34,164 nucleotides of DNA. Source: Nanobdellota archaeon. Its GTDB lineage: Archaea; Nanobdellota; Nanobdellia; SCGC-AAA011-G17; PNOQ01. Below, one piece after another: positions 878 to 17,667 of the stretch. The translations under genes and the position numbers were made by a program. How positions within the stretch are numbered: the stretch's first letter is position 1; each line of letters opens with the position of its first letter. Below the pieces are notes generated by a model. The model ran no database searches. It worked only from the letters and a program-made list of their open reading frames with translations, and was not told the origin of the DNA. The stretch covers positions 1-34,164 of the forward strand of contig JAHJUI010000004.1 in assembly GCA_018829185.1 (NCBI GenBank), given 5' to 3'.

Positions 878-3800
878 TTAAGAAATCCAAACTGCTTTGC
901 CACTTATTTCATCATTTGGAAAACCTGGGCTTTCTTCATTATCTTTGTTTTCTTCCCCTTCTGGTCCTCTTTCACCATCTTTTGGCCCTCTATCATCGCC
1001 ACCCATTATTCCTTTAAAAAATAATTGGAATATATCTTGAACTTCTCCTTTTGCACTTTCTGGATAGTATTTTGCTGAATTCATTAGGCTTCTCATTTTA
1101 AGGTACATTCTGGCTTCATTAACAACTTCCTTAACTCTTTGAATTGGTTGGATTTTTTGTCTATCCCATGGAGGACTTTCAAGCATTTTTCCCCTCATGT
1201 CTTTTTCCATATCATATATAATTTCATGCATTATTGCAAAATCTAATTCAATTCTAACATCTTCTCCTGGATTTTCAGAAGGAGGCATTGGCTCAGCTTT
1301 CATAATGTCATTTTCATTTACTTGAGCATAAACATTAAACACAACTTCGTCTGCCTCATAATCTTTAAACTGAATAACTAGATCTAAGTTACCACCATAT
1401 TTTTCTTGTAATTTCCTTATGCTTTCCATCATTTTCTTATCTTGTCTTATTTCCTGTTTTTCTTCTTCTGTTAGGCCTTCTTCATTGCCTCTTTCTAATT
1501 TTTCTTCAGGATCTCCAGGGAATTCATGGTTTTCCATAGATTGTTTCATTTCATAAATCATAAATTCTTTAGGTGGGAAAACCCAGATTTTCATATAAGG
1601 ACTAATAATAGTAACTGCCCCGTCCATTCCGGGCATTTCAACTTCTTTTATTTCTTCCCAGTATTCTAATTTACCATAATCTGTTTCATATTCAATATTG
1701 ATTAAATTAACATCCATTACTTCAGTGACATCATTTTTTTCTAAACATTGCATTGTATGGGATAATCTCATCTGACTATCAACATTATTCCAATATAATT
1801 CAAAGATTCCAGAAACTGATTGCTCCCATTCTTCTGTTGAACTTGGAAGATATTTTTCAAAGAACCATACTGCAAATTCTTGATTAAATCCTTTTTCAAA
1901 TTCTTGTCTTTGTTTGATTATGTTTTCCATCTCGTATTCACACCAATCTCCTTGGCCACCTTCGTAATATTTTTGTTTTAATGGTTCAACTTGTTCAAAT
2001 GGATCTCCCCAGCCACCAAACCAAACATATCCTTCTGTTCTTCCTTTTTCAATTCTGCAGCCACCACCTACTTGGAAAACTCCTTTTTCCCATTGTTGCT
2101 CATCTTCAAATTCTTTCCACCAATCTCCGCCTTCCATGCATTTGCCAATACAATCTTCATCAGCACTACAACCACCTTCACAATTTTGGCTTTCTTGATC
2201 AATATTACAATCCATTGATTCTCCACAAGCTTCTCTAATACATTTTTCTACACAAGGTCTTGAACATTCTGCTTTACATCTTTGTTCTTGTTCTTCTTGA
2301 TTTTGTTCTTGCTCTCTTTTATCTTTTTCTTCCCATTCACCACCATCATCTCCATAATCACAGTCTGGGCAATAATCATCTCCTGGTGGCTCTTGTCCTG
2401 GTTCACCACCATTTCCATCTCCTTCAGGATTTCCTTCAGGTTCTGGTGACCCTTGTGGTTCTTCAGGTTCAGATTCTGGTTCATCTCCACCTTCAACATC
2501 ATATCCAGTAATTCTTAAGAAAAATCCTGTAATAAAATTAATAACATTACCAGTTACTTCTGGTTCAGGTGCTTGTTCTTTAGGTTCTGGTGATTCTTGT
2601 GGTTCTGGCTCAGATACTTCTTCAGGTTCGTCTTCAATTGGCTCTTCTACTTCTTGTTCTTCTTCTGGTTCAGGTTCACTTATTTCTTCTACAGGTTCAT
2701 CAACTTCTTTTTTTTCAGGAAGTTTAACACATTCACCATTACTACAAACTTTATCTCCTCCACAATCATTTAGTGTTTCACATTCATTTTTCTTTTCTTC
2801 ACAAATCCAATCACAAGTACAATCAGGATAATTTCCAGAAATTTCTAAATTTCCTGGGCAGGAAGGTGTTTTAACAGACCATTCATCCCAACAAAATTCA
2901 TCACAACTTTCTTGTCCTGGAGAGCATTCAACATTTAATGATACCCATAAACCATCAGCACACATTGAAGTAACTAATTCTTTTCCATCAGCACATTTTT
3001 CTATAATTTTATCACCATCTTCACATAAATTGCAGGTTGCCCATTCTTTAATTTGGCATTCTCCATCAATACATTCACCACATTCACTACATTCTTCATC
3101 TACTTGACAAGGTTGTGAGTCATCAACACAAACAGGTTCTAATGGACATCCATTTTCATTTTCTCCTTTAAAAATAACTTCACCGGCACATTCTATTTCT
3201 TCATATACAGGACATCCAGCACAATCTTCATAACAAGTTTCAGTTGTTTCATTTAATTCAGGTTCACAAACTCCGTCTCCACAAAAACCTTCTTTTTCTT
3301 TTATTTCATATTCTTTTGCTTGGCATTCTCCTGAAATACAATAATAATCAACTTTAATTTTGGTTGTTTCTGTTTCGGTTGTTCCGTTTTCACCTTCAAC
3401 AGTTCCTTCAATAGTTGTTGTGCCTGCTCCACATATTTGTCCTCCACATTGAGAATCTCCACAATCTATTTGGTCATTATCATTATCATCTATATTATTA
3501 TTACAAATTTCTTCTCCGTTTTCTTTAAATTCTTGTACTAGTCTTTTTTCAAAATTTGTCTGACTAAAATAATATTCTCTTTTATCATAACCTGAAAATA
3601 AACCTAAATAAAATGATTTTCTTGAATTATAATTTTGCTCTCTTAAATCATTTGCTTTTTGTCTTTGTAATTGGTCTTGTTTTATCCACCAATAAGGATC
3701 TTCATTTCCTTCTGGTTGTTCATTAGATTTTTCTTTTTCAATCTCTTCCCACACATCATTAGATTTTTCATTCCAAGCTTCTGTTATTGCTCTAAGTTGA

Positions 3801-4804
3801 TTTGAATAAGAAAATAAAGAATCAAAATCTTCTTGCTGACAAGCACTCTGCATTTGATCTATTAAGTCCCTTGTTTCAGACATTAAACTGCTTTCATCTT
3901 TTTCTCTATATCTATCTCTTGTATTTTTATCATCTCTTCTTTCATCTGGATGTTTAAAATTACCTCTTCCTTCAAATCTTAAATCCATATTAATATAGTT
4001 CCACTCACAATCATCACACATTTCTAATCTTAAAATTGCTTCAAACTTTTCACCTTCACAAAAAGTAATTTCATTAAGAAGTACATTTTGACCTTGCCTT
4101 TGGTTTTCACTTCCAAAAATAGATACCATTACATCTTCACACTTTCCGCTACCTTGTTCAAAATAATTTCTAAAAATCATTTCTGCATTAACACTTTCTT
4201 TTGCTAATTCTTCTGCATTTGAACTTGTAGGATTAGAATTAAAAGCTTCAGCAAGTGATTGAATACTGTCTATCTTGCTTTGAATATCTATTTGTTCTTT
4301 TGGTTTTTTAAATTCAGTACTAAAATGTAATCTATAAATTATAGAATCTTCTTCTGGAAGCCCTTCAATATCTTCAAAATGATCATATTTCTTGAAAATA
4401 CTTGGATATGCTTCCATTCTTATTTGTATTTTCTTTCCATCAAAAACTATTTTTTTCCAAACAGGAACATAATCATCAAGTTTTTTGTCTTGTTCTTCTC
4501 CTTCAACCCAAACCCATTTAGTTTCTTCATTTGGTTCTCCAAGAACTTTTCTAATTTGCTCTTCTTTTACAATTCCGCCCATTTCTTTTCCTGTTGCACC
4601 TAAAACTTCATTTAAACCTTCTCTTGCAGAACTAAAATGTAGCATTAATCTAACATAATCGATATTTCCTGTTTCATATTCTTCAGCATAATGAGTAATC
4701 TTTTTTATTTCAGAATCAACAGAGCTAGCTAAAGCAAAAGGTATTATTGTGGCTAGTAGAATCAAAATTAGGAATAAACTTAATACACCCCTTTTCACTT
4801 TCAT
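878..4804 (-). CDS. Giant Cys-rich secreted surface protein
   Basis: A 1308-residue exported protein. Residues 1-26 are a signal peptide (KVKR then a hydrophobic core ending ALA). Residues 27-430 are acidic and helical. Residues about 432-700 are Cys-rich: a C-NNNIDDNDNDQIDC segment at 434-448 resembles the MopE-type Asp/Asn calcium-binding motif, FCGDGVCEPE at 507-516 resembles CGDGxC repeats of archaeal surface proteins, and several short C-x-x-C modules follow. Residues about 700-810 are a Pro/Glu linker interrupted by a hydrophobic segment with TGNVINFITG and ITGY (751-769). A second Cys cluster spans 812-889. The C-terminal domain is acidic and ends ISGKAVWIS. By my count there are over fifty cysteines, so it likely depends on disulfide formation outside the cell. 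A TATA box (TTATAAAT) about 27 nt upstream supports this start. Function unknown; a cell-surface or adhesion role is inferred. Confidence 0.8.
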   Translation of the reverse strand: MKVKRGVLSLFLILILLATIIPFALASSVDSEIKKITHYAEEYETGNIDYVRLMLHFSSAREGLNEVLGATGKEMGGIVKEEQIRKVLGEPNEETKWVWVEGEEQDKKLDDYVPVWKKIVFDGKKIQIRMEAYPSIFKKYDHFEDIEGLPEEDSIIYRLHFSTEFKKPKEQIDIQSKIDSIQSLAEAFNSNPTSSNAEELAKESVNAEMIFRNYFEQGSGKCEDVMVSIFGSENQRQGQNVLLNEITFCEGEKFEAILRLEMCDDCEWNYINMDLRFEGRGNFKHPDERRDDKNTRDRYREKDESSLMSETRDLIDQMQSACQQEDFDSLFSYSNQLRAITEAWNEKSNDVWEEIEKEKSNEQPEGNEDPYWWIKQDQLQRQKANDLREQNYNSRKSFYLGLFSGYDKREYYFSQTNFEKRLVQEFKENGEEICNNNIDDNDNDQIDCGDSQCGGQICGAGTTTIEGTVEGENGTTETETTKIKVDYYCISGECQAKEYEIKEKEGFCGDGVCEPELNETTETCYEDCAGCPVYEEIECAGEVIFKGENENGCPLEPVCVDDSQPCQVDEECSECGECIDGECQIKEWATCNLCEDGDKIIEKCADGKELVTSMCADGLWVSLNVECSPGQESCDEFCWDEWSVKTPSCPGNLEISGNYPDCTCDWICEEKKNECETLNDCGGDKVCSNGECVKLPEKKEVDEPVEEISEPEPEEEQEVEEPIEDEPEEVSEPEPQESPEPKEQAPEPEVTGNVINFITGFFLRITGYDVEGGDEPESEPEEPQGSPEPEGNPEGDGNGGEPGQEPPGDDYCPDCDYGDDGGEWEEKDKREQEQNQEEQEQRCKAECSRPCVEKCIREACGESMDCNIDQESQNCEGGCSADEDCIGKCMEGGDWWKEFEDEQQWEKGVFQVGGGCRIEKGRTEGYVWFGGWGDPFEQVEPLKQKYYEGGQGDWCEYEMENIIKQRQEFEKGFNQEFAVWFFEKYLPSSTEEWEQSVSGIFELYWNNVDSQMRLSHTMQCLEKNDVTEVMDVNLINIEYETDYGKLEYWEEIKEVEMPGMDGAVTIISPYMKIWVFPPKEFMIYEMKQSMENHEFPGDPEEKLERGNEEGLTEEEKQEIRQDKKMMESIRKLQEKYGGNLDLVIQFKDYEADEVVFNVYAQVNENDIMKAEPMPPSENPGEDVRIELDFAIMHEIIYDMEKDMRGKMLESPPWDRQKIQPIQRVKEVVNEARMYLKMRSLMNSAKYYPESAKGEVQDIFQLFFKGIMGGDDRGPKDGERGPEGEENKDNEESPGFPNDEISGKAVWIS

Positions 4805-4966: not shown

Positions 4967-5218
4967 TTATTTTTTGTAAATTTTCCTTCTGTGATCTATT
5001 TTTATCACAAGTATTCTAAGTTGATCATCTTTAATATCCATTATTACCCTATAATCACCAATTCTTAGACTGAAATAAGGATTATTTACTAATTTTTTTA
5101 CATAAACATAAGGTCTAAATCTACAGCGTTCAAGAGAAGTAACTATTCTGCTTTGTAGTTTTTTATCTAATTTTTTAAGTTGTTTCTTAGCTAAATTAGA
5201 TAATTTTACAGAATACAT
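4967..5218 (-). CDS. RelE/ParE-family toxin
   Basis: An 83-residue basic protein. The N-terminal MYSVKLSNLAKKQLKKLD and the core FSLRIGDYRVIMDI followed by IDHRRKIYKK match the RelE fold (family knowledge: the LRxGDYRV strand and a terminal HRRxxY segment; RelE members cleave mRNA in the ribosomal A site). Its ATG overlaps the antitoxin stop codon by one base (TAATG), so the two are translationally coupled. Length is normal for the family. Whether it is active was not tested; some archaeal RelE-like proteins have drifted. Confidence 0.85.
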   Translation of the reverse strand: MYSVKLSNLAKKQLKKLDKKLQSRIVTSLERCRFRPYVYVKKLVNNPYFSLRIGDYRVIMDIKDDQLRILVIKIDHRRKIYKK

Positions 5219-5547: not shown

Positions 5548-6174
5548 ATGACAAAACTTTATAGGGTTTCTAAAAAAATATTTGGTTCTATTGATAGAAT
5601 TTGGTATAAATTTGAATTAGATGGGTTAGAAAACATTCCTGAAGAAGGTCGTTTAATTGTTGCTGTTGCTGGGCATGCATGTAATGGGGATGCTATTCAT
5701 CTGGGATTGCAGCACCCAAGGGAATTACATTTTATGGCTAAAGGAGAATTGTTTGATGTTCCTATTTTGAGTAGTCTTGTAAAAGGGTATAATGCTTTTT
5801 CTGTTAAAAGGGGGCGGGGTTGTTCTTTAGAGGCTATTGAAGCTGGTTTAGATAAATTAAGAAAAGATCAAGATGTGGCCATGTTTGTTGAAGAGGTCAG
5901 AACTAAGACTGGAGAATTGGGAAGGGTAAGGACCGGGACAGCTCGTATGGCTTTAATGGCAATAGAAGAAGGTATTCCTGTTAAAATTTCTCCTTGTTTA
6001 TTGCAGGGAACTTATGGTTTATATCCTGCAGGCATTATTCCCCGTAGAAAACAATTGAAGTTGAGTTTTAATGAAACCATTGATACTAGTAAGTATGATT
6101 CTATAGATAGATTAACTGCTGCTATACATGATTCTATTCAAGAATTAAAAGAAAAAAAGAAAAAAAGTTTTTAG
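5548..6174 (+). CDS. PlsC-like (LPLAT family) acyltransferase
   Basis: A 208-residue protein of the glycerophosphate/lysophosphatidate acyltransferase superfamily. The HX4D catalytic motif is present as H43-ACNG-D48. The later motifs are recognisable but altered: SVKRGRG (85-91) in place of the usual F-x-x-R block, and FVEEVRTKTGELG (113-125) in place of FPEGTRS-type substrate binding. In bacteria PlsC acylates lysophosphatidic acid at sn-2. No long membrane segment is evident. Archaeal lipids are isoprenoid ethers, so the natural acyl donor and acceptor are unclear here. It converges on the DsbA-like gene with a 4-nt overlap, and lgt lies in the same stretch. The superfamily is firm; the substrate is not. 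Confidence 0.8.
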   Translation: MTKLYRVSKKIFGSIDRIWYKFELDGLENIPEEGRLIVAVAGHACNGDAIHLGLQHPRELHFMAKGELFDVPILSSLVKGYNAFSVKRGRGCSLEAIEAGLDKLRKDQDVAMFVEEVRTKTGELGRVRTGTARMALMAIEEGIPVKISPCLLQGTYGLYPAGIIPRRKQLKLSFNETIDTSKYDSIDRLTAAIHDSIQELKEKKKKSF

Positions 6175-7120: not shown

Positions 7121-7474
7121 CTAACAATTAGTTAGTTCTTTAAGTTTTGACAATTGCTGAACTCCTGGATATTTTTCATTATTTATTACCCAGGTTGGAT
7201 AGTCTGTTATGCCAGCATTTGAACATGAAGTTTTGTCTTGGTCGCAGTCTACATAATTTACATATTGGAATGAGTCTCCAAATAATTCTTTTTGGTCTTT
7301 ACAATGGCTACACCATTCTGTTCCGTACATTGTAGCGCCATTTTGTGTTAAGCATCGTGCTAGTTGATCATTGTCCGAGATTGGATCTACTCCTGTAAAA
7401 AGAGTTATTGCAAAGAAAATTAGGGCTATTATTATTACTGTGATTATTATGTAAGAAACTACTCTTTTATTCAT
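7121..7474 (-). CDS. Membrane-anchored thioredoxin-like protein (WCSHC)
   Basis: A 117-residue protein: a single N-terminal membrane helix (about 5-27) and a short thioredoxin-like domain with MYGTEWCSHCKDQKELFG (Cys55 and Cys58) and a DYPTW cis-proline segment (91-95). This arrangement resembles the thioredoxin domain fused to VKOR in many prokaryotes, where it passes oxidising equivalents to secreted proteins; no VKOR is visible in the window. Extra cysteines at 41, 77, 84 and the C-terminal residue may pair. An ATTTATAAAT box at about 7499-7508, immediately after the lgt stop codon, gives it its own promoter. The DsbA-like protein directly downstream is a probable partner. Confidence 0.8.
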   Translation of the reverse strand: MNKRVVSYIIITVIIIALIFFAITLFTGVDPISDNDQLARCLTQNGATMYGTEWCSHCKDQKELFGDSFQYVNYVDCDQDKTSCSNAGITDYPTWVINNEKYPGVQQLSKLKELTNC

Positions 7475-7508: not shown

Positions 7509-8261
7509 TTATGCTTTATTCAGTTCTTTAAAATCTTCTTTTGTTTTTAATTTGTAAAGCATAACTAATGAAATTATGAATAATGGAATGCTAAATAGTT
7601 GTGCCCATGATAAGTTGTAAATTACTGGTGGCCAATCTTTTAAGAAATCTAAGAAGAATCTTATAATTGAATAGATTGCTACAAATGTCCAAAATAAGAA
7701 ACCACTAGGAAGTTTTTTGTTTTTGAATAAGTAAAATAAATAAGAACCTATTGCTAAGTTTGAAATTAGTTCATATATTTGGGATGGATGTCTTTTTATT
7801 CCTTGTATTGTTATTGCCCAAGGTAAGGAAGTTACTTTTCCAAGGATTTCTTCGTTGATTAGATTCCCAATTCTTCCAATTGCTAAACCTAGTGCTAATG
7901 GGATAACTAGAATATCTGCTAAGTCAAAGAATTTTATATTTCTTTTTTTACAATAGAATATCATTACAATAATTACTAAGAAGAAACCAGTGTGGAAAGC
8001 TAAACCTCCTTTCCAAAGTTTTAAGATGTTTATTGGATTAATTGAGTAATATGACCAATTTGCTATTACATGACCGAGTCTTGCTCCGATTATTGCAGCA
8101 GGTATTAAGTAAAGCATGAAATCTAGAATATTGTCTTTGCTTATGTTTTTGAATTTTGCTAAGTAGATTGATAAGTATGCTCCAATGAAGTAAGCTAGAG
8201 CCATAATTATCCCATACCAGTGTACTTTTACTGCTCCTAATTGAAAAGCTATGGGGTCCAT
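7509..8261 (-). CDS. lgt: Prolipoprotein diacylglyceryl transferase (bacterial-type Lgt)
   Basis: A 250-residue polytopic membrane protein with the Lgt signature blocks in order: VHWYG (13-17), GARLGHV (59-65), GGLAFHTG (85-92, the His of the bacterial H-G motif), GRIGN-x-INEE (129-138, the essential Arg), RHPSQIYE (157-164) and IIRFFLDF (199-206, a second conserved Arg), then SWAQLFSIPL. In bacteria Lgt transfers a diacylglyceryl group from phosphatidylglycerol to the lipobox cysteine of preprolipoproteins on the outer face of the membrane. Most archaea lack Lgt even where they make lipoproteins, so an archaeal context is unusual; the donor lipid cannot be told from sequence. A promoter element shared with thyX lies about 28 nt upstream. 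A lipobox protein is encoded about 3 kb away at 11439. Confidence 0.92.
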   Translation of the reverse strand: MDPIAFQLGAVKVHWYGIIMALAYFIGAYLSIYLAKFKNISKDNILDFMLYLIPAAIIGARLGHVIANWSYYSINPINILKLWKGGLAFHTGFFLVIIVMIFYCKKRNIKFFDLADILVIPLALGLAIGRIGNLINEEILGKVTSLPWAITIQGIKRHPSQIYELISNLAIGSYLFYLFKNKKLPSGFLFWTFVAIYSIIRFFLDFLKDWPPVIYNLSWAQLFSIPLFIISLVMLYKLKTKEDFKELNKA

Positions 8262-11438: not shown

Positions 11439-12377
11439 ATGAAAAAACTGATTATTTTAGTAATTTTAGTGTTTATTTCTGGATGTAGTTTTAATGGGGA
11501 TTATGTTTTTGAATTAAAAGAAGTTGATTCTGAAGGTTATTATGAAGCTTATTTTTGTCAAGTTGAGGATTGTGAAAGTGTTTTAGTTAATCTAATTGAA
11601 GGTTCTTCTAAGGTTAGATGTGCTATTTTTGATTTAGATCTAGAAAATGTTACTAATGCTTTAAAACAAAAAGATTACAAGTTAGTTGTTGATCAAAAAA
11701 ACACTAAAGATTTAGATGGATTGAAATATGTTATGAATAAAGGAGAGTCACAATTAATGCATAATAAGTTTTGTATTTTTGATGATAAAATTGTTTGGAC
11801 TGGTAGTATGAATCCAACTGGAAGAAGAGCTTATTATAATGACAACCACATAGTTATTTTTTATAGTAAAGAGATTGCTCAAGTTTTTAATGATGAATTT
11901 AATGAGCTTTATGGAAGAACCTTTGGTTGGGGGCGTAGTGTTAATGTCCCTAGTTTTAATTTAAGTGGAACAAAAGTGCAGGTTCATTTCTGTCCTGAAG
12001 ATTTTTGTGAAGAAACTGTTTTAGATTTGATTGAAAATGCTAATGAGATTAGATTTATGACCTTTAGTTTTACTTCTGATAAGATTGGAGATGCTTTATT
12101 ATTAAAAGAAGATGTTAAAGGTGTTTTTGAGAAAAGTCAAGCAAGCCAAGAATGGAGTGAATATCATAAATTAAAAGATAAGTTTGATGTTAGATTAGAT
12201 ACAAATGGATATAATATGCATCATAAAGTGTTTATTTTTGATAAGAAAATAGTTGTTTTTGGAAGTTATAATCCTACAGATAATGGAAATTTGTATAATG
12301 ATGAAAATATGATTGTTGTTTATGACGAAGAGTTAGCTAAACAGTTTCTGGAAGAGTTTGAGCGGATTTATTTCTAA
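11439..12377 (+). CDS. Phospholipase D-like lipoprotein with two HKD motifs
   Basis: A 312-residue protein of the phospholipase D superfamily with two complete HxKx4Dx6GSxN motifs: HNKFCIFD-DKIVWT-GSMN (about 107-124) and HHKVFIFD-KKIVVF-GSYN (about 262-279). The two halves form one active site that cleaves phosphodiesters; members include nucleases and phospholipases and the substrate is not predictable here. The N-terminus KKLIILVILVFISGC is a lipoprotein signal peptide with lipobox I13-S14-G15-C16. Residue 16 would be lipidated by an Lgt such as the one at 7509-8261, placing the enzyme on the outer face of the membrane. Its 3' end overlaps the convergent gene by 41 nt. Confidence 0.88.
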   Translation: MKKLIILVILVFISGCSFNGDYVFELKEVDSEGYYEAYFCQVEDCESVLVNLIEGSSKVRCAIFDLDLENVTNALKQKDYKLVVDQKNTKDLDGLKYVMNKGESQLMHNKFCIFDDKIVWTGSMNPTGRRAYYNDNHIVIFYSKEIAQVFNDEFNELYGRTFGWGRSVNVPSFNLSGTKVQVHFCPEDFCEETVLDLIENANEIRFMTFSFTSDKIGDALLLKEDVKGVFEKSQASQEWSEYHKLKDKFDVRLDTNGYNMHHKVFIFDKKIVVFGSYNPTDNGNLYNDENMIVVYDEELAKQFLEEFERIYF

Positions 12378-14015: not shown

Positions 14016-14939
14016 ATGATATGCCTAATAGCACTTATTGTTTTCGGAATATTAGCAATTTTCTCAGCTAGTCATAGGCCTTTATTTAAGGAAGCTTTAG
14101 ACTGTGTAGGAAGAAGGTTGACTTTTAGGCCATGTGAAAGTAAATTAGATGAAAGACTTAAAAGTAAAATTACTGGGGTTTTATTAAAAAGAAATAAGTA
14201 TGCTGCTAGATTTGTATATAAAAGGTTTGAAATTATTTCATGGATATTTTTAATTTTAATGATTGGGAGTATTTTTTTCTCTGCACAAGCTGGTTATTAT
14301 TATGCAAGATATGGAAATTGTAATGGGCCAGATGATGATGGTTTTTGTATTTTTGATCCCTTAGGAACTGCACATGAGCCTGGATGTGAAATTGATAATC
14401 CAGACTATAATCCAGAAGATGTAACTTTGCCGGTTGTTTATGATGATGCAGTTTCTTTTGGAGATGAAAATGCGAAGGTTACAGTAATTGAAGCTGGCTG
14501 TTTTGAATGTGATTATACCAGGCAAGCTGTTCCGGTTGTAAAGAAAATTCTAGAAGTTTATGGAGATCAAATTAGATTTGTTTATATGGATTTCCCAATT
14601 AAATCACATGAATCTGCAACTAAATTAGCTGAAGCAGCACATTGTGCCCATGAACAAGATAAGTTCTGGGATTATTATTATGTTTTATTTGAAAACCAAG
14701 AGAAAACTTCAAATGAAGAATTAATACAACATGCAGAAGATTTAAGTTTAAATATTGAACAATTCACATTTTGTTTAGAATCTGAAAAATATAAGTCCGT
14801 TATAGATAGAGATTTTAATAATGGTGTTAAAGCAGGAATTTATGGAACACCTACATTCTTTGTAAATGAACATGTACTTGTTGGTCCAAAAGATTTTAAT
14901 GAGTTTAAAGTATTAATTGAACAAGAATTAAATCAGTAA
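14016..14939 (+). CDS. Membrane-anchored DsbA-like disulfide oxidoreductase (CFEC)
   Basis: A 307-residue protein with two N-terminal membrane helices (about 1-17 and 72-92), a short Cys-containing linker (C102, C111, C124) and a DsbA-type thioredoxin domain from about 140. The active site is GCFECDYTRQ (C162, C165). The cis-proline loop is YGTPTFFVN (276-284), typical of DsbA/BdbD proteins that oxidise secreted proteins. Unlike the DsbA-like protein at 6171-7109 its CxxC is complete, so this is the better candidate for the oxidase. A TTTTTAAA box about 27 nt upstream supports the start. The DUF4870 gene follows on the same strand after 42 nt. Confidence 0.87.
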   Translation: MICLIALIVFGILAIFSASHRPLFKEALDCVGRRLTFRPCESKLDERLKSKITGVLLKRNKYAARFVYKRFEIISWIFLILMIGSIFFSAQAGYYYARYGNCNGPDDDGFCIFDPLGTAHEPGCEIDNPDYNPEDVTLPVVYDDAVSFGDENAKVTVIEAGCFECDYTRQAVPVVKKILEVYGDQIRFVYMDFPIKSHESATKLAEAAHCAHEQDKFWDYYYVLFENQEKTSNEELIQHAEDLSLNIEQFTFCLESEKYKSVIDRDFNNGVKAGIYGTPTFFVNEHVLVGPKDFNEFKVLIEQELNQ

Positions 14940-15351: not shown

Positions 15352-16494
15352 ATGAATGTAGAGAAATTAAGAAAGGATTTTCCTGTACTAAATAAGGATT
15401 TGATTTATCTCGACTCGGCATGTATGACCCTTAGACCAAGGCAGGTTATTGATAAAATCATTGAATATTATACTGAATATCCTGCTTGTGGAGAAAGAAG
15501 TTATCACAAATTAAGTAGAAGAACAGCTGAAGAGTTTGAAAATGCTAGAATTCTAATAAAAAAGTTTATTAATTGTAAAAAAGATGGAGAAGTTGTTTTT
15601 ACTAAGAATGCCACTGAAGCAATAAATTTAGTTGCTAATTCTTTTGAGTTTAGCAAGATGGCTATAACAGACAGAGAACATAATTCTAATCTGTTACCTT
15701 GGCACAAATTTAAACATTTTATAGTTAAGAGTAATGAAGATGAAACTTTTGATATGAATGCTTTCCAAGATACAATTAAAAAAGTTGATTTGATTAGTTT
15801 TGTTTTTACCAGTAATTTAGATGGTTATACTTTACCAGTAAAAGAGATTATTAAGGTTGCACATGAAAATGATGTTGTTGTTATGTTAGATGGGGCACAA
15901 GCTGTTCCACATAAGAAAATAGATGTTTCTAAGTTAGATGTTGATTTAATGGCTTTTTCAGGTCACAAAATGCTTGGCCCTTCTGGAACTGGTTGTTTGT
16001 ATGGAAAAAGGCACATTTTAGATAAGATGAAGACTTTTATTATTGGCGGAGATACTGTTAACAATACAACTTATGATAAGTTTGAATTGAAAGAAGCTCC
16101 TTACAAGTTTGAGGCTGGTTTGCAAAATTATGCTGGGGTAATTGGGTTAGGTGCTGCTGTTAAGTATTTAACTCCAATTATTGGTGATATTGAAAGTCAT
16201 GAAGAAAAACTTTGGAAATATATGCGAGATAATTTAGATGTTGAAATGGTGGGTGTTGATCAGGCTTCAGGTATATTTTCTTTTAATATTCCTAAAATGA
16301 CTTCACATGAAATTGCACAGATGTTAGATAGTTCTGCCAATATTGCTATAAGGAGTGGAATGCATTGTGTGCATAGTTGGTTTAATTCTAGAAAGTTGAG
16401 TGGAAGTGCTCGTGCTTCTTTTTATTTGTATAATACAATGGATGAAGCTAAAAGGTTTGTCGAAGAAGTTAAGAAGATCATTGAATTAAGGTAA
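15352..16494 (+). CDS. Cysteine desulfurase (SufS/CsdA-type, class V aminotransferase)
   Basis: A 380-residue PLP enzyme. The PLP lysine is K206 in FSGHKMLGPSGTG, the cofactor Asp is in LDGAQ (179-183), and the catalytic Cys339 lies in RSGMHCVHSW, matching the RxGxxC loop of group II cysteine desulfurases. ARASFYLYNT (353-362) carries the substrate-carboxylate Arg. The enzyme takes sulfur from cysteine for Fe-S clusters or tRNA thiolation. No scaffold or SufBCD gene is nearby, so the acceptor is unknown. Length is slightly below the usual 400-410. A selenocysteine lyase role is possible but less likely. Confidence 0.88.
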   Translation: MNVEKLRKDFPVLNKDLIYLDSACMTLRPRQVIDKIIEYYTEYPACGERSYHKLSRRTAEEFENARILIKKFINCKKDGEVVFTKNATEAINLVANSFEFSKMAITDREHNSNLLPWHKFKHFIVKSNEDETFDMNAFQDTIKKVDLISFVFTSNLDGYTLPVKEIIKVAHENDVVVMLDGAQAVPHKKIDVSKLDVDLMAFSGHKMLGPSGTGCLYGKRHILDKMKTFIIGGDTVNNTTYDKFELKEAPYKFEAGLQNYAGVIGLGAAVKYLTPIIGDIESHEEKLWKYMRDNLDVEMVGVDQASGIFSFNIPKMTSHEIAQMLDSSANIAIRSGMHCVHSWFNSRKLSGSARASFYLYNTMDEAKRFVEEVKKIIELR

Positions 16495-16548: not shown

Positions 16549-17103
16549 ATGCATACAGATAGATGGGAAAGAAGATTAGGTTATGGTTTTGGAAATTTTA
16601 GGGAACTTAGAGGACAATGGGCACCATATGATAAAGTTGGGCCAAATGATGTTCACATTAATCCAGACTCTAGATATGCCAGAGAATTAGCAGAAGTTGG
16701 AATGATGGTTGATGTAGAAGGTACACTTGAGGGAATGCCTGCTTCAATTGCATTGGTTGTTGATATTGATAAGGGTACCCACAGGCAAGTAATAGGTTAT
16801 ATTGAGAACGCTAACCTTATGTTAGAAGACCATACAAGCGGTGAACGAGGAAAAGGATATGATGAACCAATTGTCACACATTTAGATTGGATTGGGTACA
16901 AAAGGTGGGGGCATTTAATTGATTGGGATGTAGATGGAAATGTATCTTTTGAACTTTACTTTGTTCAACCACCAATCTCAGAAAAGGAATTTTTAAGAAG
17001 AGATTCTGCTTTGGAAATGAATACTGGGATAGAAACTATGTTGGATAAGGGAAGTCCCGAAGGATCTAAGTCTGCTAAAGGAATTTTACTTGAAGGTGCT
17101 TAA
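16549..17103 (+). CDS. Hypothetical protein, 184 residues
   Basis: A soluble acidic protein beginning MHTDRWERRLGYGFG, rich in Gly, Asp and Trp, with a strand-rich central region (MMVDVEGTLEGMPASIALVVDID). No family recognised and no signal peptide. The ATG at 16549 is chosen because a GGGGGG ribosome-binding site precedes it by 8 nt; an upstream TTG at 16507 is unlikely. A GTAAGATTTATATA promoter (about 16491-16504) gives a leader of roughly 20 nt. A T-rich terminator follows immediately, and the 3' end overlaps the convergent Lit-like gene by 18 nt. Confidence 0.65.
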   Translation: MHTDRWERRLGYGFGNFRELRGQWAPYDKVGPNDVHINPDSRYARELAEVGMMVDVEGTLEGMPASIALVVDIDKGTHRQVIGYIENANLMLEDHTSGERGKGYDEPIVTHLDWIGYKRWGHLIDWDVDGNVSFELYFVQPPISEKEFLRRDSALEMNTGIETMLDKGSPEGSKSAKGILLEGA

Positions 17104-17667
17104 CTTTTTTCTTTTTTTTATTAAATAACCTAAACTAGAAATAATTAAACTTTCTACAAAAATATAAACGAATAAGTTTCTAAAACCTTGCACCCAGAAT
17201 TCTAATGGAAATTGTTGCAATAATTTAGATCCGGATTCTAACAACCAATAATCTGTTTTGAATAATAATTTATGAAATGTTGTAAAGAAAAATTGGAAAT
17301 TTATTAAAAAGATTATTAAGAATATTATTAATAAAAGAATTGTTAGATTTCCGCCATAAAATAACCCTTTTGCAAAATCTTTTTTGTTTTTTATATAAAG
17401 AGATAAACTCATCAATGCAAAAAGTAATAAACCAAGTCTTAATGTGGCAGTTAAACTTTGAATTAGTTCTTTTACTTCTTGAAGATGCATGATTTCTCTT
17501 TCTGAATATGTGGATGATAATTCTTCGTTTGATTTAAAGAAATTGTACATTTCTTGGTCATCTTTTAAACCATTGTTAAAAATAAATAACCCATTTGCAA
17601 TAAATAATAAAATTGGTATTAAAATGATAAAAACTACTAAAAAAACCTTTCTTTTTATCTTTTTCAT
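17086..17667 (-). CDS. DUF1461/TIGR01906 membrane protein, Lit-like (lipoprotein intramolecular transacylase family)
   Basis: A 193-residue protein with four membrane helices (about 7-30, 72-92, 103-126 and 162-184) and an external loop with EREIMHLQEVKEL (57-68) and FTTFHKLLFKTDYW (128-141) followed by QFPLEFW (152-158). These match the DUF1461 family, which contains the bacterial Lit enzymes that move an acyl chain from the lipid-modified cysteine's glycerol to its amino group. From memory, Bacillus cereus Lit uses two histidines about 72 residues apart (85 and 157); here His61 and His132 are 71 apart in the same contexts. The first four bases overlap the stop of the microprotein upstream (ATGA). 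Family assignment is good; transacylase activity on archaeal lipoproteins is inferred. Confidence 0.78.
   Translation of the reverse strand: MKKIKRKVFLVVFIILIPILLFIANGLFIFNNGLKDDQEMYNFFKSNEELSSTYSEREIMHLQEVKELIQSLTATLRLGLLLFALMSLSLYIKNKKDFAKGLFYGGNLTILLLIIFLIIFLINFQFFFTTFHKLLFKTDYWLLESGSKLLQQFPLEFWVQGFRNLFVYIFVESLIISSLGYLIKKRKKLSTFK
17104..17123 (+). terminator. T-rich intrinsic terminator
   Basis: CTTTTTTCTTTTTTTTATTA directly follows the stop codon of the gene ending at 17103. It lies opposite the last codons of the convergent Lit-like gene, so on that strand it is part of a Lys-rich tail. Confidence 0.55.

Follow-up and report, generated by a model that had tools for sequence, protein, structure and literature searches.

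A candidate Lit-type lipoprotein transacylase, together with Lgt and LspA, in a DPANN archaeon

Introduction

The lipoprotein intramolecular transacylase (Lit) family of enzymes is already known. In the Lit reaction, the amino group of the lipoprotein cysteine receives an ester-linked acyl chain that was previously carried by the glycerol (PMC8275575). In the Bacillus cereus enzyme (BcLit), His85 and His153 form the catalytic pair, and Phe157 is the most conserved residue. Mutants of all three residues are inactive, except for the His153Asp and His153Glu variants, which have 27 and 77% activity, respectively (PMC8275575). What is surprising in the case described here is not the enzyme, but its owner and setting.

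A 2026 paper states that prolipoprotein diacylglyceryl transferase (Lgt) is absent from archaea, based on a survey of the RefSeq genomes of February 2021 (PMC13251419), a collection that is expected to hold few DPANN genomes. In the literature that we surveyed, we found no description of Lgt, LspA or Lit in DPANN; this survey excludes the archaeal lipoprotein study of Hong et al. 2025 (Nat Commun 16:8411), which might mention DPANN Lgt.

Results

A Lit homologue in an archaeal genome

The window, by which we mean the entire analysed stretch of 34,164 nucleotides, comes from a genome of 827 kb in 27 contigs. A preliminary description, made from the sequence alone, had pointed to a Lit-like transacylase candidate at 17086-17667, with histidines 61 and 132 placed 71 residues apart, and these details proved exact. 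The 193-residue open frame is read from the minus strand; in the same interval, the plus strand has stops throughout. H61 is found in the context ERE-IMHLQEVK, and H132 in the context TTFHKLLFKTDYW.

17086..17667, minus strand: Lit homologue, 193 aa, four transmembrane (TM) helices (PF07314, AlphaFold2 model, Foldseek, invariant columns)
17475..17493 (approximate), minus strand: residues 59-64 (IMHLQE) around H61, the equivalent of BcLit His85, at the outer end of TM2 (alignment with 7b0o)
17245..17277 (approximate), minus strand: residues 131-141 (FHKLLFKTDYW) with H132, F136 and W141, in the part that connects TM3 with TM4, an amphipathic helix and a loop (alignment with 7b0o)

The protein matches the Pfam Lit family PF07314 with 67.6 bits (E=1.8e-18, cut-off 24), far beyond chance. 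Membership is asserted for this Pfam family, because both NCBIfam models give scores below their cut-offs: the hypothetical equivalog TIGR01906 narrowly (70.5 bits versus 74.8), and the Lit equivalog NF051877 with 46.1 bits versus 400. The protein is a short form, in which the first outer segment, between TM1 and TM2, is reduced. Among the relatives from the same order, six longer ones pass the TIGR01906 cut-off (90.8-101.1 bits), and four short forms fail it (50-57 bits).

A phmmer comparison with BcLit (PDB 7b0o) gave E=7.7e-12, and the only sequence-based relatives in the PDB were B. cereus Lit structures. A profile built from 45 relatives covers the whole chain of these structures (E=1.5e-32). 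The AlphaFold2 model calculated from the 45-relative alignment has a mean pLDDT of 95.3 and features the Lit fold, with four TM helices, the outer dome and the amphipathic helix. In a Foldseek search of the PDB, 7b0p_A was matched with a probability of 1.00 and a TM score of 0.82; significant matches were confined to six B. cereus Lit chains (TM 0.75-0.82). A scan of the IMG/VR viral contigs with the protein found no relatives. Judged by threshold, predicted fold and catalytic residues, the protein is almost certainly a true Lit (PF07314) homologue, as the preliminary description had proposed.

Catalytic residues and predicted topology

In the alignment, H61, V65, H132, F136 and W141 are equivalent to His85, Val89, His153, Phe157 and Trp162 of BcLit. 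Asp88 and Asn159 of BcLit are replaced by E64 and T138, respectively. The invariant columns of the 45-relative alignment are exactly H61, V65, H132 and F136. As the sequences were picked by a regular expression that contained H132 and F136, the invariance of these two residues is partly built in, whereas H61 and V65 were unselected. On inspection, Lit members outside this selection also retained both histidine motifs.

Basic residues are found at the N-terminus, in the TM2-TM3 turn, and at the C-terminus. By the positive-inside rule, this distribution would place both H61 and H132 on the outer side of the membrane, as in BcLit.

An archaeal contig and a probable ancient transfer from bacteria

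Lit and Lgt have been described as bacterial families, and bacterial lit and lgt genes could have been binned into an archaeal genome by assembly contamination. The surroundings of the genes argue strongly against this. The same 34-kb contig carries genes for the archaeal proteasome alpha subunit, SBDS, and the exosome subunits Rrp4 and Rrp42, all above the NCBIfam cut-offs, and for Rrp41, which scores just below. The contig is thus archaeal, and mis-binned bacterial DNA is unlikely. The named close matches of the Lit homologue are in Candidatus Woesearchaeota and Nanobdellota genomes; the pattern search of genome contigs for such close matches used a six-sequence Lit alignment. When 54 archaeal and 41 bacterial Lit sequences were placed in a tree, the archaeal ones formed a single group (SH-aLRT 94, root not fixed), which adjoins sequences from Bacillota, Chloroflexota and Caldisericota. 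Contamination is already refuted by the presence of Lit across the phylum (157 of 236 genomes) in a single archaeal group, and we rejected it, as its probability is next to nil. The best fit is a single ancient transfer from bacteria, after which the gene was inherited inside the phylum.

Lgt, LspA and lipobox proteins

The preliminary description had also reported Lgt in the same window and a lipobox protein nearby. Both are present:

7509..8261, minus strand: Lgt (prolipoprotein diacylglyceryl transferase) of 250 aa, in which the motifs GGLAFHTG and GRIGNLINEE are present (PF01790, E=1.7e-65)
11439..12377, plus strand: double-HKD phospholipase D (PLD)-like protein, a likely lipoprotein substrate, with the lipobox FISGC and the start MKKLIILVILVFISGC (PF13091, E=3.1e-33, and lipobox scan)

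The Lgt assignment is above the PF01790 cut-off and passes the TIGR00544 model (172.7 bits, cut-off 118.9), and the protein matches the solved bacterial Lgt (PDB 5azb) with E=1.4e-28. LspA, which the preliminary description did not mention, is also encoded in the genome, on a separate contig (G000:C6:2115-2474, E=9.3e-27), with both catalytic Asp motifs (GNLIDR and FNIADS). About 19 proteins of the genome have an N-terminus that resembles a signal, followed by a cysteine in the lipobox position, and after correction for abundance, cysteine is 3.4 times as frequent in this position as the next residue. The recognisable ones are a cyclophilin, a PLD-like protein, a glycosyl-hydrolase-like protein, and an alpha/beta hydrolase that also has beta-propeller repeats. 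At G000:C23:24377-26256, two lipobox proteins of about 300 aa each, with no Pfam match, adjoin each other.

The window contains further genes that are of interest in this context:

7121..7474, minus strand: small thioredoxin-like membrane protein, encoded immediately downstream of lgt (PF00085, E=3e-4, sub-threshold; homologues beside Lit/Lgt in relatives)
14016..14939, plus strand: DsbA/Thioredoxin_4-like membrane protein (PF13462, E=9e-26; homologue recurs beside Lit in relatives)
15352..16494, plus strand: SufS-like cysteine desulfurase (TIGR01979, E=2e-109, below cut-off; homologue immediately before or after Lit in several relatives)
5548..6174, plus strand: PlsC-like acyltransferase, possibly for re-acylation of lysophospholipids (PF01553, 58.8 bits)

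In several relatives, the gene order is thioredoxin-like, Lit, Lgt, and the DsbA-like and SufS-like genes recur as well (loci L005, L009, L021, L162 and L184 are among those). It looks as if protection of the lipobox thiol were tied to lipidation, and the neighbours may serve to maintain the lipobox cysteine in a reduced state for Lgt. In the order, 19 of 99 genomes have the PlsC-like acyltransferase, and on the grounds of this patchy occurrence it was rejected as a core partner. Elsewhere in the window, a secreted, Cys-rich and Glu/Pro-rich protein of 1308 aa without a Pfam match, possibly a surface protein, is encoded at 878-4804 (minus strand), and a ParE/RelE-like toxin gene (PF05016) is located at 4967-5218 (minus strand).

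Distribution and linkage

Among the 99 genomes of the order, 65 have Lit, 92 have Lgt, and 90 have LspA. The three enzymes together are thus the norm across a DPANN order, and Lgt and Lit are found in most of its phylum. Lgt was detected in 186 of the 236 phylum genomes; Lit and Lgt occur together in 149, Lit alone in 8, Lgt alone in 37, and neither in 42. The co-occurrence is strong (odds ratio 21, Fisher p=7e-17, in a test that ignores kinship). Inside the order it says little, because Lgt is near-universal there, with or without Lit. One relative (G161) has six Lgt matches in a single genome.

Physical linkage is evident in the 61 order genomes that have both genes. Lit and Lgt are within 5 kb of each other in 21 of the 61, and within 0.6 kb in 13, where random placement in an 800-kb genome would be expected to yield about 1 and 0.2 pairs, respectively. 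The preliminary description had suggested an archaeal lipoprotein remodelling pathway, and had named co-occurrence with lgt across DPANN genomes as a check. The co-occurrence and linkage, together with the HMM and structural comparisons, support the suggestion, for an enzyme that would have the activity of its family. The gene content indicates that a complete Lgt-LspA-Lit pathway is maintained in these archaea.

It is conceivable that the Lit fold and active site have been kept for a different substrate with acyl chains, such as phospholipids or lysophospholipids obtained by scavenging, and that the protein is an acyl-shift or remodelling enzyme. The shortened outer segment in one Lit subclade, the PlsC-like acyltransferase in the same window, and the eight genomes with Lit but no detected Lgt would fit such a role. 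However, Lgt may have been missed in some of the eight, whose assemblies are fragmented. The catalytic residues of BcLit are strictly conserved, which together with the tight linkage to Lgt points to lipoproteins. We therefore consider another substrate rather improbable.

Genes for membrane lipid synthesis

The lipids expected in archaea are of the ether type, and an ether-linked isoprenoid chain cannot undergo transacylation by Lit. The preliminary description overlooked this aspect of the chemistry: Lit would imply ester lipids in a cell in which ether lipids are expected. GGGPS, which is required for archaeal lipids, was detected in none of the 99 order genomes by a PF01884 search, which could miss divergent GGGPS, but finds the enzyme in control archaea. 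Across the phylum, 5 of 236 genomes have a match above the cut-off.

No member of the UbiA family, to which DGGGPS belongs, was detected in the genome under study or in the searched genomes of its taxonomic family. In the phylum, where GGGPS is nearly absent, 92 of 236 genomes nevertheless have UbiA prenyltransferases, and some of these genomes carry Lit. Some members of the phylum may thus make or modify isoprenoid lipids. Mutual exclusion of Lit and archaeal lipid synthesis, which we also considered, failed for the same reason, and the claim that archaeal lipid synthesis is missing applies to the genome and its family, and to the order for GGGPS only.

PlsY was detected in only one of the 99 order genomes, and not in the genome under study. 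Motif scans of this genome, which carry little weight, revealed no CDP-alcohol phosphotransferase, CdsA or trans-prenyl synthase. With GGGPS undetected in 99 and PlsY in 98 of 99 genomes, the entire order seems unable to make either type of phospholipid backbone.

Discussion

In view of the lack of detectable lipid synthesis genes, it is probable that the cell takes in finished lipids. Lipid uptake has been reported generally for reduced DPANN (PMC6349945, PMC7414124). If Lit works, the acquired lipids should be ester lipids, and hence of bacterial (or eukaryotic) origin. As Lit moves only ester-linked acyl chains, the donor would be a bacterial-type ester phospholipid. A bacterial lipid source would be consistent with the large murein-binding proteins that have been reported from Woesearchaeota (PMC8204110), and with a 2025 proposal, made from other genes, that Woesearchaeia alter lipids acquired from bacterial hosts (PMC11868695).

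Alternatively, the cells may have ether (archaeol) membranes from an archaeal partner, with Lgt moving an archaeol group, and Lit remaining as a non-catalytic or differently acting leftover. Such membranes would leave Lit without a chain to transfer, and the histidine pair is nevertheless retained across many families of the order. Precedents exist, in that Nanoarchaeum equitans gets archaeal lipids from its archaeal host (PMC6349945) and Haloferax lipoproteins bear diphytanylglyceryl groups (PMC13251419), but the archaeal lipoprotein route of Haloferax uses the unrelated AliA/AliB (PMC12186497). Altogether, we regard archaeol membranes with a leftover Lit as quite unlikely.

We favour the view that the gene product is a functional lipoprotein intramolecular transacylase of the Lit type, made by a DPANN archaeon of the Woesearchaeota/Nanobdellota group. 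Sequence and prediction show that the protein has the family membership, the fold and the catalytic residues of Lit, that Lit and Lgt co-occur and are linked, and that lipobox proteins are present and lipid genes missing. That the protein works as Lit in vivo appears likely. In the first step of the pathway, the cell would export a lipobox preprotein. Lgt would then transfer a diacylglyceryl group from a phospholipid to the lipobox cysteine, and LspA would cut the signal peptide. Finally, Lit would take the sn-2 acyl chain off the glycerol and attach it to the amino group of the cysteine, which is free by then, to give a lyso-form lipoprotein. In this reaction, protonated H61 would stabilise the oxyanion, and H132 would serve as general acid-base. 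The ester phospholipid would most likely be supplied by a bacterial partner.

A host-dependent archaeon of the Woesearchaeota/Nanoarchaeota group and most of its relatives thus have the full bacterial gene set for making and remodelling lipoproteins. Since this gene set needs bacterial-style ester lipids, the cells probably use membrane lipids that are taken from bacteria. For the specific case of bacterial-derived ester lipids in these cells, we see about even chances. The broader picture is similarly balanced: a large DPANN lineage may run the bacterial lipoprotein pathway on ester phospholipids from bacterial partners, with membranes that are partly or wholly bacterial and lipoproteins that are remodelled to the lyso form. 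Bacterial-like lipids in Woesearchaeia have already been proposed in 2025 (PMC11868695), and Lit adds independent and mechanistically tighter evidence. As Lit requires an ester-linked acyl chain, a gene that can be read from a genome tests which lipids uncultured cells use. If true, the presence of Lit and Lgt in the genomes of uncultivated archaea would mark bacterial-type lipids as well as bacterial hosts, with a bearing on the lipid divide and on the question whether Woesearchaeota live on bacteria.

Comparison with known systems

The closest described enzyme is BcLit (PDB 7b0o, 7b0p; PF07314/TIGR01906). The two proteins share the fold (TM 0.82), with four TM helices and the amphipathic helix, equivalents of His85, His153, Phe157, Val89 and Trp162, and a genome that also encodes Lgt and LspA. 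In contrast to BcLit, the window protein is archaeal, has only 193 aa with a reduced TM1-TM2 segment, and is about 20% identical in the structural alignment. Moreover, the archaeal relatives link Lit to lgt and to thioredoxin, DsbA and SufS genes.

At the level of the pathway, the Lgt-LspA-Lit route to lyso-lipoproteins in low-GC Firmicutes is most similar. All three enzyme families and classical lipobox proteins are found in both cases. The difference is that the archaea are without detectable membrane lipid synthesis, so that the acyl-lipid donor would have to be external. With Haloferax volcanii and its AliA/AliB, the present system shares the presence of archaeal lipobox proteins that are, or here would be, lipid-anchored. 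However, AliA/AliB are not homologous to the bacterial enzymes and yield diphytanylglyceryl groups, whereas the DPANN archaea described here have homologues of the bacterial enzymes themselves (PMC12186497, PMC13251419).
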